Source of the DNA: Thermanaerovibrio velox DSM 12556
GTDB lineage: Bacteria > Synergistota > Synergistia > Synergistales > Synergistaceae
NCBI RefSeq assembly: GCF_000237825.1
Contig: NZ_CM001377.1
Span: forward strand, 1,364,001-1,428,000
Direction of reading: 5' to 3'
DNA length: 64,000 nucleotides
Shown: positions 32,337 through 37,797 of the stretch, in pieces
How the letters are laid out: each line of letters opens with the position of its first letter
How positions within the stretch are numbered: the first letter of the stretch is position 1
Translations under genes and position numbers: made by a program
The notes under the pieces: model-generated
What the model was told of the DNA's origin: nothing
Database searches by the model: none
The model's input: only the letters and a program-made list of their open reading frames with translations

Positions 32337-33456
32337 GGGACACCTCCGAAACCGTCAGCCTAAGGGCCTCAAATACCAGCTCCGCATCCTCCCGGGTGGC
32401 ATGAAAGGAGGGGAGAAACCGAACCACCCTAGGTCCCGCGGGAAGCGCCAGCACCCCCTTGGACTGAAGAGACCTCACCACCAGGGAGGAGTCCACCGGC
32501 ACCTCCACGCCGGTCATGGAGCCAAGGCCCCTAACCACAAGCCCAAGCCCCAGCACCCGCTCCCGGAACTCCTCCATGACAGCACATATCCCGGCGGAAG
32601 CCCCCTCCATGACCCTTTGTATCCCGTAAGCCCCCATGGCACAGGCCAAGGGATTGCCCCCGTAGGTGGACCCGTGAAGCCCGGGGGCAAAGTCCCCGAG
32701 GTCGGATCTCCAGAGGGTCATCCCACAAGGGAAGCCCCCCGCAAGCCCCTTGGCAAGGCACACCACCTGGGGGTTCAAACCCACCAAGGGGCTCGCCAAA
32801 ATGGGCCCGCAGCGTCCCATGCCGGTCTGGACCTCGTCGGCCACCAGTATGGCCCCGTTCCTCTGGCAGGCCTCGCTTATGGCCCGGCCTAAGCCCTCAG
32901 GAAGGGGGTTAACACCCCCCTCGCCCTGAACGGGTTCAACGAAGACCGCCGCCACCCGGTCATCCACCCTCTCCGGCACCATCTCCGGGGAAAGATGCTC
33001 AACCTGAGGGATCAACCGTCTAAAGGGCTCCTTGTAGCGGGGGTTGAACGTCAACCCCAGGGCCCCCAGGGTCCTCCCGTGAAAAGCCCGCCGTAAGGCT
33101 ATGATCCTGTCCCTGGAGGGCCTAAGGTAAACGCAGAGCTTAAGCGCCGCCTCCAGGGCCTCGGTGCCGCTGTTGCAGAGGACGAAACGCATGCCCGGGA
33201 AGGCCCTCATAACCTGCTCCCCCAGGGCCTCCCTTGAGGGATGGCCGAACCCCGCCCCCACCGCCCAAAGGCCTTCGGCGGCGCGCTTGAGCGTCTCCAC
33301 CATCCCAGGGTCACGGTGGCCGAATATGGCGGCCCCATGGGCGGTAAACCAGTCCACATACTCCCTGCCGTCCTCATCAACCACCCTGCCGAGGTTTCCA
33401 GAGGTCAGCGAGATGCCGCGGTTTCCATACATTGAGCTGAGCGGGTTGAACAAAAC
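32314..33456 (-). CDS. lysJ: [LysW]-aminoadipate/glutamate semialdehyde aminotransferase
   Basis: 380 aa from GTG 33456, which has GGGGAGGGGGG just upstream and overlaps lysZ by 52 bases; an ATG at 33432 has no ribosome site. Class III aminotransferase: CNSGTEALEAALKL, FHGRTLGALG, ILVADEVQTGMGR with the PLP Lys in LAKGLAGG, and HGSTYGGNPLA. It is PLP-dependent and aminates the LysW-bound semialdehyde using glutamate. It resembles ArgD, but the LysW gene context decides the name. Confidence 0.9.
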   Translation of the reverse strand, partial: VLFNPLSSMYGNRGISLTSGNLGRVVDEDGREYVDWFTAHGAAIFGHRDPGMVETLKRAAEGLWAVGAGFGHPSREALGEQVMRAFPGMRFVLCNSGTEALEAALKLCVYLRPSRDRIIALRRAFHGRTLGALGLTFNPRYKEPFRRLIPQVEHLSPEMVPERVDDRVAAVFVEPVQGEGGVNPLPEGLGRAISEACQRNGAILVADEVQTGMGRCGPILASPLVGLNPQVVCLAKGLAGGFPCGMTLWRSDLGDFAPGLHGSTYGGNPLACAMGAYGIQRVMEGASAGICAVMEEFRERVLGLGLVVRGLGSMTGVEVPVDSSLVVRSLQSKGVLALPAGPRVVRFLPSFHATREDAELVFEALRLTVSEVSHGSGGTP

Positions 33457-34238
33457 ACGGTCCCCCCTCCCCCTAATGCCCTTCCAATGGGGTTTTGGAG
33501 CCTTCCGTCCCCTATTACCACCCTTTGGACTCCCCCCATCAACGCCTCCCTGGCAGCCAACACCTTCCTCTTCATGTTCCCCTGGGCGGCCGCATCCGCC
33601 GCATCCCACTCGTCCAAGCCCACGCGGCTTATGAGGCTTGAGGGATCGGAGGGGTCCAAGAGAAGACCTGGGGTGTTGGTGAGCATCACCATCACGGAAG
33701 CCTCCAGGGTGGAGGCCGCGGCGGCCGCGAGCCTGTCCCCGTCTACGTTTATAAGGACCCCATCACACGCCGCTAAGGGGGGCAAAAGCGGCAGCTTCCC
33801 CTGCTCCAAGGCGCTCAATATGAGGTCCTCCCGAACCTCCGCAACCCTTCCGCTGTAATTGCCCCTTAGGATCCTAACCCGGCCGCCCTCCAGGGACCTC
33901 AAGCAGTCCTTCCGTTCCCCCTCCGCGGGGGTCAGAACCTGGCAAGACACCCCCAAGGCCTCCATCCGCTCCGCTATTGACCGGGAAACCGCGAAGGCCG
34001 CCTCCTCGAACACACACCTCTCCAAGGGGCCCACAAACCGGCTGCGGTAACCAGAGGGACTCACCACGTGGCGAACCTCCACACCCCTTTCCGCACAGAG
34101 GCGCTCCATCATACCGCTTGCCCCGTGGACGAGCACCCAGCGCTCTCCGCTGCGAAAGCGGCAGGCCAGCTCCTCTAAAAGGGGCTCCAGCCTGTTGCCT
34201 GAGGCCCCGCCTATCTTCACAACCCCAAACACGCACAT
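33405..34238 (-). CDS. lysZ: [LysW]-aminoadipate/glutamate kinase
   Basis: 277 aa from ATG 34238, nine bases after AGGAGGG. Amino acid kinase fold: VVKIGGASGN, LVHGASGMME, LPLLPPLAACDGVLINVDGD and LTNTPGLLLD. It phosphorylates the side-chain carboxylate of the LysW-linked substrate. SGYRSRFVGPLE matches the substrate loop of the LysZ/ArgB group. It starts 20 bases after lysY. Confidence 0.92.
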   Translation of the reverse strand: MCVFGVVKIGGASGNRLEPLLEELACRFRSGERWVLVHGASGMMERLCAERGVEVRHVVSPSGYRSRFVGPLERCVFEEAAFAVSRSIAERMEALGVSCQVLTPAEGERKDCLRSLEGGRVRILRGNYSGRVAEVREDLILSALEQGKLPLLPPLAACDGVLINVDGDRLAAAAASTLEASVMVMLTNTPGLLLDPSDPSSLISRVGLDEWDAADAAAQGNMKRKVLAAREALMGGVQRVVIGDGRLQNPIGRALGGGGTVFCSTRSAQCMETAASR

Positions 34239-34258
34239 TGATACCATCCCTCCTAGCG

Positions 34259-35314
34259 TCACGCGGGATATACGGGGGGCATGGCGAGCCCCTCGTCCTC
34301 CGGAAGTCCAAGCATGAGGTTTGCGCACTGCACCGCCGTTCCGGCGGCCCCCTTCATAAGGTTGTCTATCCCGGACCCAATGAGCAGCCTTCTACCGGTG
34401 CGGTCAAGCACAAACCCCACCATGGCCCGGTTGCTGCCGAGCACCAACTTCGGGTCCGGGATCCTAAGGTGAACCGGTCTTGCGGGGCAAAGGTCCACGA
34501 AGGGCTCGCTTCCAAAGGCCCCCCGGCAGGCCCTCCAAAGGTCCGCCTCGGACACCGGGTCCTTAAACCTCACGTGAGCAAGGCACTGAACCCCCCGGAC
34601 CGCCTCCACCGCCGTAAGGGTCATGGAGAGGGATTGAGCCGGTATGTTAAGCTCCTGGACTACCTCCGCCATGTGGCGATGAACGAAAGGGGATACGAGC
34701 CTCATGGCCCGGCTCCTGAAGACGTGCATGCCGCCCTCCGAGGGCCTGCTGCCCCCCTCGGACGAACCGGCCCGGCACTCAACGTTCACGTCCAACACGT
34801 TGGCCCACAGGGGAGAGCTAACCAGGGGGTAAAGGCACAACAGGACCCCCGTGGCGTTGCATCCAACCCCGCTCACCAACCGGGCGGAGGCTATCTTCTC
34901 GCGGTTAAGCTCCGGCAGTCCGTACACGAAGGAACCTAAAAACTGTGGACAAGGGTGCTTCCCATACCAAATCTCGTGTTCCCTCGGGTCCCTAAGGCGA
35001 AAATCCCCGGACAGGTCCACTATCCTGCGCCCCCCTTCCACCAGGGGCATCAGCCCCTCCACCCAAGGGGCGCTTTTCCCGTGAGGAAGGGCAAGGAAGA
35101 TCAAGTCCCATTCACCCTCCAACACGGCCTCCGGAGAGACGAAGGTCCTGGATCTATAGGCATAGGCCAAATGGGGGTGGGAGGACCTCACCGGCTGTCC
35201 CTCGGACGAGGAGGAACATATGAGGGACACCTCCAGGTGGGGATGCTGGCAGAGTATTCTAAGGAGCTCTCCCCCCGCAAGGCCCGCGGCTCCCATGACG
35301 GCTACCCTATGCAT
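34259..35314 (-). CDS. lysY: [LysW]-aminoadipyl/glutamyl phosphate reductase
   Basis: 351 aa from ATG 35314 (GGAGG eight bases upstream); the frame remains open far upstream but that part is a shadow of the citrate-synthase-like gene. The nucleotide-binding motif is VMGAAGLAGGELLR, the catalytic Cys lies in GVGCNATGVLL and the catalytic His in the FVHRHMAEV segment. It reduces the LysW-acyl phosphate to a semialdehyde with NADPH, like ArgC. It overlaps the preceding stop by 13 bases. Confidence 0.92.
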   Translation of the reverse strand: MHRVAVMGAAGLAGGELLRILCQHPHLEVSLICSSSSEGQPVRSSHPHLAYAYRSRTFVSPEAVLEGEWDLIFLALPHGKSAPWVEGLMPLVEGGRRIVDLSGDFRLRDPREHEIWYGKHPCPQFLGSFVYGLPELNREKIASARLVSGVGCNATGVLLCLYPLVSSPLWANVLDVNVECRAGSSEGGSRPSEGGMHVFRSRAMRLVSPFVHRHMAEVVQELNIPAQSLSMTLTAVEAVRGVQCLAHVRFKDPVSEADLWRACRGAFGSEPFVDLCPARPVHLRIPDPKLVLGSNRAMVGFVLDRTGRRLLIGSGIDNLMKGAAGTAVQCANLMLGLPEDEGLAMPPVYPA

Positions 35315-36024
35315 GGCTCTTCCTCCACCGGGGCAAGCCTGTAGGGCCTGAAGGGACCTTGGGACACCTCCCGCAATATCCACATGATGAGCCCCGGTAT
35401 GCGGCCGCAGAAGAAAACCCCTCGGCCAACCTCCGGCGGGAAACCCATGTCCAACAAAAGGGCCCCCGCAACGCCGTCGATATTTCCCCTTATCCCCTTC
35501 AACCTCGTCAGCTCTTCCTGTACCGCCAGGAAGAACCTGAGGTGCCTGGTATCCCTTAGCGAAAGCCCCTTGCGGACCAAGGGTGCCACCCGGGGATCTT
35601 GGCGATGAACCCTGTGTCCAAAACCGGGCATCCTCTCCCCACGGGACAGGAACGAAGACACCAACTCCCCCGGGTTGACCATGTCCCTTACGGAGGCGCT
35701 GAAGAGCTCCATGGCCCGCTCTATGGCCCCCGCGTGGTGATCCCCAAAGGACAAAAGGGCCGATGCCAGTGCGCAGTGGATCCCCGAGCCCGATGAGGCC
35801 GCAAGCCTGGCGGACTGGGTGCTGGGAGGAGTGGCTCCATGATCTCCCATGGCACATAGTATGGCGCGAAACACCCCGGACTCCTCCTCGGAAGGGGAAC
35901 GCCCTTGAACCAGCCTAAACCAAACCTCCGAGGGATCTGCCCTGTCTATGAAGCCCCCTATTGGCTCCCGGTCGATGATTATGCTGTCCCGGCACACCGA
36001 CGAGCTTCCAAGCCTCACCACCAT
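35302..36024 (-). CDS. Minimal citrate synthase/citryl-CoA lyase-like protein in the LysW operon
   Basis: 240 aa, roughly half a citrate synthase and near the size of citryl-CoA lyase. The large-domain catalytic set is retained: DHGATPPSTQSARLAAS (61 on), H96/H97 in FGDHHAGA, H138 in PGFGHRVH with DPR following, and D183 in GNIDGVAGA. This suggests an active acyl-CoA condensing or cleaving enzyme. Start ATG at 36024 overlaps the end of the preceding 53-codon ORF, with GGGGAGG upstream; its stop overlaps lysY. Thus it is translated as part of the LysW operon. A role in making the 2-oxo or dicarboxylic precursor is possible but unproven. Confidence 0.8.
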   Translation of the reverse strand: MVVRLGSSSVCRDSIIIDREPIGGFIDRADPSEVWFRLVQGRSPSEEESGVFRAILCAMGDHGATPPSTQSARLAASSGSGIHCALASALLSFGDHHAGAIERAMELFSASVRDMVNPGELVSSFLSRGERMPGFGHRVHRQDPRVAPLVRKGLSLRDTRHLRFFLAVQEELTRLKGIRGNIDGVAGALLLDMGFPPEVGRGVFFCGRIPGLIMWILREVSQGPFRPYRLAPVEEEPCIG

Positions 36025-36176
36025 TCCCCATCCCTCCCCAGGTGCCCGTCCTGATCAAAGTCATCGGTACCCTCTCCATCCAGTTCCCAGGGGTTCCAAG
36101 ACATACCCTGGGGCATCTCATCCAAGGGCATGAGGGTTATCAACAAACCGCCAAAAAGGGGAAGCCTGAGTTCCAT
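36015..36176 (-). CDS. 53-residue acidic protein of unknown function
   Basis: ATG at 36176 has an ideal GGAGGTGTT eight to nine bases upstream, and the stop overlaps the citrate-synthase-like start (ATGGTGGTGA), which indicates translational coupling. The N-terminal half is hydrophobic (LPLFGGLLITLMPL), the C-terminal half is strongly acidic with several Asp, Gly and Trp (DGEGTDDFDQDG, ending DGEWW). The ending recalls the EDWGE tail of LysW in composition, but there is no cysteine. It lies ~30 bases downstream of the attenuator. No family recognised. Confidence 0.6.
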   Translation of the reverse strand: MELRLPLFGGLLITLMPLDEMPQGMSWNPWELDGEGTDDFDQDGHLGRDGEWW

Positions 36177-36204: not shown

Positions 36205-36316
36205 ACATAAAAAACCCGCCCCATTCCGGGCGGGTTGAGGTGTAAGAGGCATGAAGGGAACAGGCCCCCGATGATACGCCAAGTTAACCGGGGGATGTCC
36301 CTTCCCTCAACCCGCC
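36205..36316 (-). promoter_or_regulatory. Riboswitch-like attenuator: competing antiterminator and terminator
   Basis: On the minus-strand RNA, GGCGGGTTGAGG (36316-36305) is perfectly complementary to CCTCAACCCGCC (36240-36229). The latter also contains the 5' arm of an intrinsic terminator AACCCGCCC/GGGCGGGTT (36236-36228 with 36221-36213) followed by six U. The two folds exclude each other. Between the antiterminator arms is a hairpin with 15 pairs (GAAGGG, ACA and CCCCCG arms, 36253-36304) and an 18-base loop. An upstream CCCGCC (around 36350-36355) could pair with the antiterminator. It precedes the 53-codon ORF, citrate-synthase-like gene and lysYZJK. Confidence 0.75.
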
Positions 36317-36417
36317 TGAACGACCCCACGCCCGGAAGAGCTTTCCAAGGGCGGGGGAAAACCTCAACGACAGCAGTGCCCTCTCATCAGCCCCGAAGGG
36401 CTTTCGCTTACCGCGTT

Positions 36418-37263
36418 TCATTTCACGATACCCCCTTGTTTATCCAAAAGGTTCCTAACGATGAGACCCGGTATGTCAACCCCGGTGGGCTCCAGGGAGT
36501 TCTTGAACTCACCACCGTCGTTCACCTCGTTCACCATCCACTCCCCGTTCACGAGGAATAGATCCACCGCCAGGAAGTCTCCCCCTATGGCTCCGTGGAC
36601 CCCCTTGAGAAGGTCCCTCATGGCGCTGTCCACGGGCTGGTTTGAGGTCCTGCCCCCCCTTGCGGTGTTTGTTATCCAGCTCTGGCTCTCGCGCCGCACC
36701 GCACACACCGGCTCTCCACCGATGATGAAGGCCCTTACGTCGAAGCCACCCTTTTCCACGTACTCCTGGATGAAGAATGTCTGGTGGTTAACCCCAAGCT
36801 GCTGCTTGTGTTCCACCACCGCCTCCAGGGCCTCCCGGTCGTTGACCTTGGCGAGAAGGCGTCCCCAGCTTCCGCAAAGGGGCTTCAGCACCGCCGGGTA
36901 ACCAAGTTCCTCCACCGCTCCCATGGCCCCCTCCTGAGACAGGGCCACCCTCCAACGGGGCTGCGGGATCCCAAACCTCTGAAGCTCCAAAGCGGTGAGC
37001 ATCTTGTTTCCGCACAGCGCCATTACCTCCGGAGGATTGGAAACCCGGACTCCTGCTGCATTTAGGCACCTGGCGAGCATCTCGTTCTGGCCGTGGGATA
37101 TGCACCTGCAAAGGGGCACAGAGCCGGCCTCCAGGGGAAGCTCACCCCCCAAGACCCATTCCGATACGTCCAACAAACGGGACCTGATGCCCATCTCGAG
37201 GGCCCTCTGATGAAGCAGCTTTTCCTCCACCCTAAGTCGAGTGTAGAGCACCAACAGGTCCAC
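36418..37263 (-). CDS. lysX: LysW-alpha-aminoadipate/glutamate ligase
   Basis: 281 aa, the LysX/ArgX length. ATP-grasp motifs: NPPEVMALCGNKMLT, YPAVLKPLCGSWGRLLAKV, FIQEYVEKGGFDVRAFIIGG and WITNTARGG, ending with VNEVNDGGEFKN. It joins the C-terminal Glu of LysW to the amino group of aminoadipate or glutamate. GTG at 37263 lies one base after the lysW stop. Whether it is lysine- or ornithine-specific cannot be decided by eye. Confidence 0.93.
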   Translation of the reverse strand: MDLLVLYTRLRVEEKLLHQRALEMGIRSRLLDVSEWVLGGELPLEAGSVPLCRCISHGQNEMLARCLNAAGVRVSNPPEVMALCGNKMLTALELQRFGIPQPRWRVALSQEGAMGAVEELGYPAVLKPLCGSWGRLLAKVNDREALEAVVEHKQQLGVNHQTFFIQEYVEKGGFDVRAFIIGGEPVCAVRRESQSWITNTARGGRTSNQPVDSAMRDLLKGVHGAIGGDFLAVDLFLVNGEWMVNEVNDGGEFKNSLEPTGVDIPGLIVRNLLDKQGGIVK

Positions 37264-37264
37264 C

Positions 37265-37447
37265 CTATTCCCCCCAGTCCTCCTGCACCTGCGGGGCCTC
37301 GGTGAGCTCCAGGGGCTCCAGGGACAACACCTCCAGCTCCACCCCGCAGTCCGGACACGGCACTATCTCGCCCACACAGGAGCCCTCTGGCAGGCTAACG
37401 ACTCCCTCGCACACCACACAAATCCCGTTAAGCCTCGTACCATCCAT
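37265..37447 (-). CDS. lysW: Amino-group carrier protein LysW
   Basis: 60 aa from ATG 37447, with GGGAGGAG eight bases upstream. A zinc ribbon is formed by CVVC (residues 10-13) and CPDC (31-34), and the C-terminus ends EDWGE, the invariant tail whose last Glu carries the substrate. The acidic C-terminal half is typical. It is the first gene after the T-box leader and is coupled to lysX. Confidence 0.95.
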   Translation of the reverse strand: MDGTRLNGICVVCEGVVSLPEGSCVGEIVPCPDCGVELEVLSLEPLELTEAPQVQEDWGE

Positions 37448-37483: not shown

Positions 37484-37797
37484 ATAAAAAAAGGACCCGT
37501 CCCCGAAGGGACGAGTCCTTGGAACTCGCGGTACCACCCAACTTGAACGGCCTCGACAGAAGCATGGGAAGCCGTTCCTCTCTCGGGCCTTTGACGGAGC
37601 CCACCCGGGAGACGTACTCCGGTCCCCGCAACGGGAGACCTTTCCGCCCCGGCTCCGCGGACCTTGGGCCTCACGGCGGACCCAGACCCCTCTCAGCCGG
37701 TGGAGGTCATTCTCTGTAGGATCCGTCTCTCCGCTTGGCCATCCGCATCATGGCCTTTCCCCTATAACACCCCTCAATGTTCAGGGAGCCTTCGTTG
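37484..37797 (-). promoter_or_regulatory. T-box leader controlling lysW-lysX
   Basis: The invariant T-box GGGTGGTACCGCG is at 37539-37527. It is followed by a terminator: AAGGACTCGTCCC, loop TTCG, GGGACGGGTCCTT (37520-37491) and seven U. Stem I features are visible at 37717-37710 (AG bulge ACAGAGAA) and 37697-37691 (distal GCTGAGA). GGATCC/GGGTCC flanks a specifier loop whose 3' strand is GCCGTGA (37677-37671). By the usual position, the codon just before the last A is GTG (Val); a one-base shift gives CGT (Arg). Uncharged cognate tRNA would switch the leader to antitermination. Confidence 0.93.

Follow-up and report, generated by a model that had tools for sequence, protein, structure and literature searches.

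Genes and RNA elements at the locus

The window is the whole stretch of DNA analyzed here, 64,000 nt of the Thermanaerovibrio velox DSM 12556 genome (NZ_CM001377.1, positions 1,364,001 to 1,428,000). It carries a LysW-type operon on the minus strand, with a candidate regulatory RNA (36205-36417) directly behind lysX. In the direction of transcription, the features are as follows.

37504-37760, minus strand: T-box heading the operon, with AAG (Lys) as its inferred specifier
37265-37447, minus strand: lysW, carrier protein
36418-37263, minus strand: lysX, its stop overlapping the start of the leader
36284-36421, minus strand: leader ORF of 45 codons and a TAA stop, MKRGKRKPFGADERALLSLRFSPALGKLFRAWGRSGGLREGTSPG, its ATG overlapping the lysX stop (ATGA)
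36401-36418, minus strand: Lys/Arg codon cluster AAA CGC GGT AAG CGA AAG (K R G K R K)
36324-36357, minus strand: upstream hairpin CCCCCGCCC / GGGCGTGGGG of the predicted fold, possibly a pause or protector hairpin
36305-36316, minus strand: GGCGGGTTGAGG, 5' arm of the antiterminator, within the leader ORF
36253-36304, minus strand: inter-arm hairpin with the leader stop TAA towards its apical end; similar sequence in G002
36229-36240, minus strand: CCTCAACCCGCC, 3' arm of the antiterminator, sharing bases with the terminator 5' strand
36209-36236, minus strand: intrinsic terminator and U run, from a terminator scan
36015-36176, minus strand: small ORF of 53 aa (MELRLPLFGG...GHLGRDGEWW), the first behind the terminator, its stop overlapping the next start
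35302-36024, minus strand: citrate-synthase/citryl-CoA-lyase-like gene, among these loci only in the window's genus and G006
34259-35314, minus strand: lysY (argC-like)
33405-34241, minus strand: lysZ

The T-box at the head of the operon scores 50 bits, which is under the Rfam gathering score of 93. This T-box is the "first" regulatory RNA that the first-pass annotation implies in its title; the annotation had described 36205-36417 as a second one, with an antiterminator and a terminator, placed to control the genes after lysX apart from lysWX. Our analysis supports this description. Between the candidate attenuator and lysY, the 53-aa ORF and the citrate-synthase/citryl-CoA-lyase-like gene occur together only in the window's genus and in G006. 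The terminal HLGRDGEWW of the ORF is conserved.

The lysX gene ends in GTG AAA TGA, and the overlapping ATG (ATGA) opens the leader frame. The 100 bases following the lysX stop belong to this 45-codon ORF, which begins MKRGKRKPFGAD; five of the first six codons after the start encode lysine or arginine, and the AAGCGAAAGCCCTTCGGGGC portion of the leader is identical in the sister species G001 and G002. Further downstream in the same frame lies the antiterminator 5' arm: GGCGGGTTGAGG (36316-36305) is the exact reverse complement of CCTCAACCCGCC (36240-36229) over 12 bases of the minus strand. When the longest perfect complement was scored in 1000 dinucleotide shuffles of the region, none reached 12. 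The terminator AACCCGCCC-GGAATG-GGGCGGGTT (36236-36213, minus strand) has nine pairs, seven of them G-C, followed by a U run, and an independent scan agrees. As the antiterminator 3' arm overlaps the terminator, the two folds are mutually exclusive. A hairpin between the arms (36304-36253), with the leader stop near its tip, is present in the minimum-energy fold, and folding of the region has a z-score of -2.6. Both the competing 12-base complement and the intervening hairpin had been noticed in the first-pass annotation and are confirmed here; the leader ORF had gone unnoticed in it.

In searches against Rfam 15, no family matched 36205-36417 at its gathering score, and only chance-level matches were obtained up to E = 10. 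The covariance models of known riboswitch classes gave no match, and no match to the T-box (RF00230), with its T-box sequence and Stem I specifier loop, was obtained in this region, which bears out the initial impression that it contains no known riboswitch or T-box motif. A resemblance to a hammerhead core (CGAAA ... CUGAUGAG) within the first 40 bases was rejected by inspection; its spacing does not fit, and CUGAUGAG is not retained in G001. A phage search gave no match.

Leader ORFs behind lysX in other Synergistota

lysX was found in 74 of the 188 Synergistota genomes searched, and the gap between lysX and the next gene was measured in loci from the lysX-bearing genomes. This gap is about 200-410 nt in families f1 (that of the window), f2, f5, f6 and f8, and mostly 0-60 nt in f3, f4, f9 and f11, where two loci have gaps of 107 and 130 nt. 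The gaps of f7 and f10 measure about 100 nt and contain a bare terminator with no leader ORF. All 37 of the long gaps analyzed, from Synergistales, contain a leader ORF, compared to 39% in a shuffled control. These ORFs are 31-77 codons in length; relative to the lysX stop, which 18 of them overlap, they start at -4 to +21 nt. The 37 leaders are Lys/Arg-rich, typically with KCKRGIKR, and are followed by a terminator; in f6, the ORF extends through it. Shared Lys/Arg cores are KCKRGIKR, KCKHGIKR, KRKPGIKR and RKRGLKR, with KRKPFGA in the window's genus, and KR or RK is found in 36 of the 37 peptides. Because the sequences are related, these locus counts are not independent. The first-pass annotation would have been contradicted by a lack of conserved paired arms in relatives; an equivalent switch is in fact kept there. 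The LysX loci analyzed from other phyla, including Thermus scotoductus, showed no comparable leader behind lysX.

The set of 37 excludes L046 (where the contig ends within the gap), L091 (a lone lysX), the second lysX of L082 (at a contig end) and L078, L079 and L081 (where a T-box and lysW follow lysX, or the gap is unresolved). The truncated L046 also has a KR-containing ORF, at +31. The terminator was set by hand for L044, L071, L077 and L086, for which the automatic choice was wrong; a T-box pattern match in L086 lies within coding sequence and is spurious. In the f7 loci L078, L079 and L081, a second lysX lies upstream of the T-box and lysW, and in L079 and L081 a bare terminator without a leader ORF precedes lysY. 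L082 (G040) has two lysW-lysX pairs: a Lys/Arg-rich ORF follows the first lysX, and behind the second a similar sequence begins that is truncated where the contig stops. In G170, a cobalamin riboswitch (L067, 830-1007; 92 bits) is located upstream of lysW.

Several features suggest that the frame is coding. Lysine plus arginine make up 0.228 of codons in frame compared to 0.152 and 0.173 in the other frames (composition-keeping shuffles alone give 0.18), and the densest nine codons contain 4.8 Lys/Arg in frame compared to 2.8 and 3.5. All members of a set of 22 family sequences have the conserved Lys codon in frame, and indels between the start and the IKR codons are multiples of three. Just behind the core, a 2-nt indel shifts the downstream frame (MGR or GSW) while leaving the RNA arm GGGYCGT, which pairs with the terminator 5' strand, unchanged. 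For the arginine following the conserved lysine, all four CGN codons occur (8/10/6/3), and the third position of this codon covaries with the R/H/P codon that it faces in a hairpin (GC 10, CG 6, AU 5, GU 1). There thus appears to be selection on codon content as well as on RNA pairing.

RNAalifold, when applied to the family alignment, mostly chose the terminator, and the alternative helices were therefore tested explicitly. For the hairpin plus antiterminator of the 22-sequence family, 91.2% of cells are paired (30-41% in slid versions), 19 cells are changed on both sides (5.5 in shuffles) and covariation is 0.251, compared to 0.162 in shuffled alignments (0 of 500). The terminator alone shows 92% pairing with little covariation beyond shuffles. 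Behind the arm, another helix has a mean of 6.6 pairs, compared to 4.8 in shuffles. A duplex search against shuffles gave weak z-scores at many single loci, and family covariation was more useful.

A covariance model, R1, was built from the 22 sequences and run over the 188 genomes. It matches the expected gap in six genomes outside the training set (G028, G037, G056, G029, G054 and G006); of its matches away from lysX, the two whose surroundings were inspected (G145 and G016) appear to be chance. The R1 scan did not find the window's copy. G001 and G002 align to the model in the expected position and score 20 and 13 bits, respectively. Because R1 misses the window, its membership rests on synteny, the ORF, the shared KRKPFGA and 76% identity to G002 rather than on the model. 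The window's copy is divergent, and its link to the family runs through the sister species.

A predicted attenuator and its alternatives

An ORF upstream of a terminator, a cluster of product codons and an antiterminator and terminator that are mutually exclusive and conserved are the features expected of an attenuator, and all three are seen here, the products of the pathway being predicted from its genes. Based on what can be read from the sequences (the ORF and the codons it holds, the terminator, the two complementary arms, the covariation in relatives and the conserved place), the switch in the window is probably a ribosome-mediated leader-peptide transcription attenuator, and our confidence in this reading is higher for the family than for the window's copy. 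Translation, stalling, sensing of Lys versus Arg and the direction of the response are what we infer. Ribosomes finishing lysX would initiate or reinitiate at the overlapping ATG and translate the Lys/Arg-rich leader peptide. If charged Lys-tRNA, Arg-tRNA or both were scarce, they would stall in the Lys/Arg codons and leave the downstream leader free; the free 5' arm could then pair with the terminator 5' strand, forming the antiterminator and allowing RNA polymerase to read through into lysYZJK. If both charged tRNAs were plentiful, the ribosome would reach the leader stop and disrupt the antiterminator, and the terminator would form.

Spacing in the family is consistent with this model. From the conserved Lys codon to the antiterminator arm there are 14 or 16 nt, which approximates the distance to the leading edge of a ribosome, so that a stalled ribosome would leave the arm free; by our footprint reckoning, one at the leader stop would cover the helix behind the arm. 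The window's copy differs: about 85 nt, as opposed to 14-16 nt, separate its main Lys/Arg cluster from the arm, and the nearer residues K27 and R30 are not retained in G002. In equilibrium folding, which ignores cotranscriptional kinetics, P(terminator) in the window is 0.19 with the ribosome at the first Lys codon and 0.65 with it at the stop. Crude equilibrium folding of the 37 loci gave the predicted direction in 19 and the opposite in 4, with L063, L064 and L072 going the wrong way; with the ribosome at the stop, the mean P(terminator) rose from 0.61-0.65 to 0.78 in the same crude treatment. Several observations count against an attenuator, including the divergence of the window's copy, the extension of the f6 ORF through the terminator and the retention of Lys codons in genomes with lysA, whose operon would be expected to produce mainly arginine.

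Three other explanations were considered. The first is that the region is a fixed, unregulated intra-operon terminator that lowers lysYZJK relative to LysW and LysX, with the ORF incidental. The bare terminators of f7 and f10, in gaps of about 100 nt without a leader ORF, are what it would lead one to expect, and the carrier protein may be needed in excess. As it leaves unexplained both the in-frame Lys/Arg-rich ORF in 37 of 37 longer gaps and the covarying antiterminator, we consider it unlikely. The second is that the nascent chain is an arrest peptide that senses lysine, arginine or ornithine in the exit tunnel, as opposed to codon starvation. While the conserved core K-[CR]-K-[RHP]-G-[IL]-K-R does include residues besides Lys and Arg, one of its positions swaps R/H/P in a manner that keeps RNA pairing, the residues behind it change frame between clades and it is reduced to KRKPFGA in the window's genus; a peptide-based sensor is thus very unlikely. 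The last, a riboswitch or protein-binding RNA with unknown ligand as proposed in the first-pass annotation, would account for the strong folding and alternative helices, but it is highly improbable given that Rfam yields no match, that no aptamer-like core common to the window and its relatives was seen and that the place expected for an aptamer is occupied by a Lys/Arg-rich ORF in 37 of 37 loci analyzed, with the frame kept up to the Lys/Arg codons in relatives. In the leader-peptide attenuator that we favor, the comparative evidence (an ORF in the same place in 37 of 37 loci) suggests that this upstream part is translated, such that the ribosome would sense aminoacyl-tRNA supply.

Pathway context and comparison with known systems

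In the lysX-bearing genomes of the order, no kinase scores over the ArgB cut-off; ArgB-like kinases fall below it, as does the window's LysZ. Among 41 relatives, argH is over its cut-off in 37 and ArgJ in one. No lysA over the cut-off was found in the window's genome, while many others have one. This pattern of gene content suggests that the pathway supplies ornithine/arginine generally and, in the window's genome, lysine as well. The homocitrate synthase family TIGR02146 had no match over its cut-off and was uninformative on the first steps of the aminoadipate route. The LysX signature WITNTARG was discarded as a marker of mono- or bifunctionality, since TtLysX and the bifunctional TkLysX both have it.

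As LysW enzymes probably serve both lysine and ornithine/arginine synthesis, leader codons for both end products make sense; the thrL and ilvL leaders likewise contain codons of several end products. Both Lys and Arg codons are kept in the leaders, and the presence of lysA or of a T-box does not separate Lys-rich from Arg-rich ones. In relatives of f2, f6 and f10, the T-box upstream of lysW has AAA as its inferred specifier. Two more T-boxes in the window's own genome, both below the gathering score, precede argG (G000:C1:1078193-1078429, L198; inferred CGU, Arg) and thrC-thrB (566424-566701, L197; inferred ACC, Thr), the latter serving as a check on the specifier register. It is possible, though we suggest it only tentatively, that control is layered, with the Lys T-box gating the operon, the Lys/Arg leader gating lysYZJK and the Arg T-box gating argG. 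Three tRNA-charging sensors, using two mechanisms between them, would then apportion a single bifunctional LysW pathway to the demands for lysine and for arginine.

According to a 2010 survey, leader-peptide attenuation had previously been known only in Proteobacteria and Actinobacteria; the survey itself added Firmicutes (PMC2965389). Our literature search found no report of it in Synergistota, a phylum in which one branch has conserved this probable form of control at an unusual place.

Like the window's leader, the trpL, hisL, thrL and ilvL attenuators have a short ORF with end-product codons, an antiterminator and terminator, and a stop near the decision point. Unlike them, it is located within an operon, has a start codon that overlaps the stop of the enzyme gene before it, contains codons for both Lys and Arg and stands behind a T-box of the same operon. 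T-boxes (RF00230) also respond to tRNA charging by means of an antiterminator and terminator, and one heads this operon; 36205-36417 has no T-box match. SpeFL, an arrest peptide, is similar in being a basic leader peptide linked to ornithine/arginine metabolism; here, there is no sign of a nascent chain that senses a metabolite. The lysine cluster of Thermus thermophilus is subject to leader-peptide attenuation of a LysW-type lysine pathway as well, with the leader at the 5' end of the cluster. The mechanism is already known; what is new is the internal position, the coupling to lysX, the Lys plus Arg content and the tandem arrangement with a T-box. A T-box and a leader peptide in series, the latter coupled to the upstream enzyme gene and bearing codons of both products, provide a concrete, testable model for regulation of a shared lysine/arginine pathway, here a LysW pathway that is probably bifunctional.
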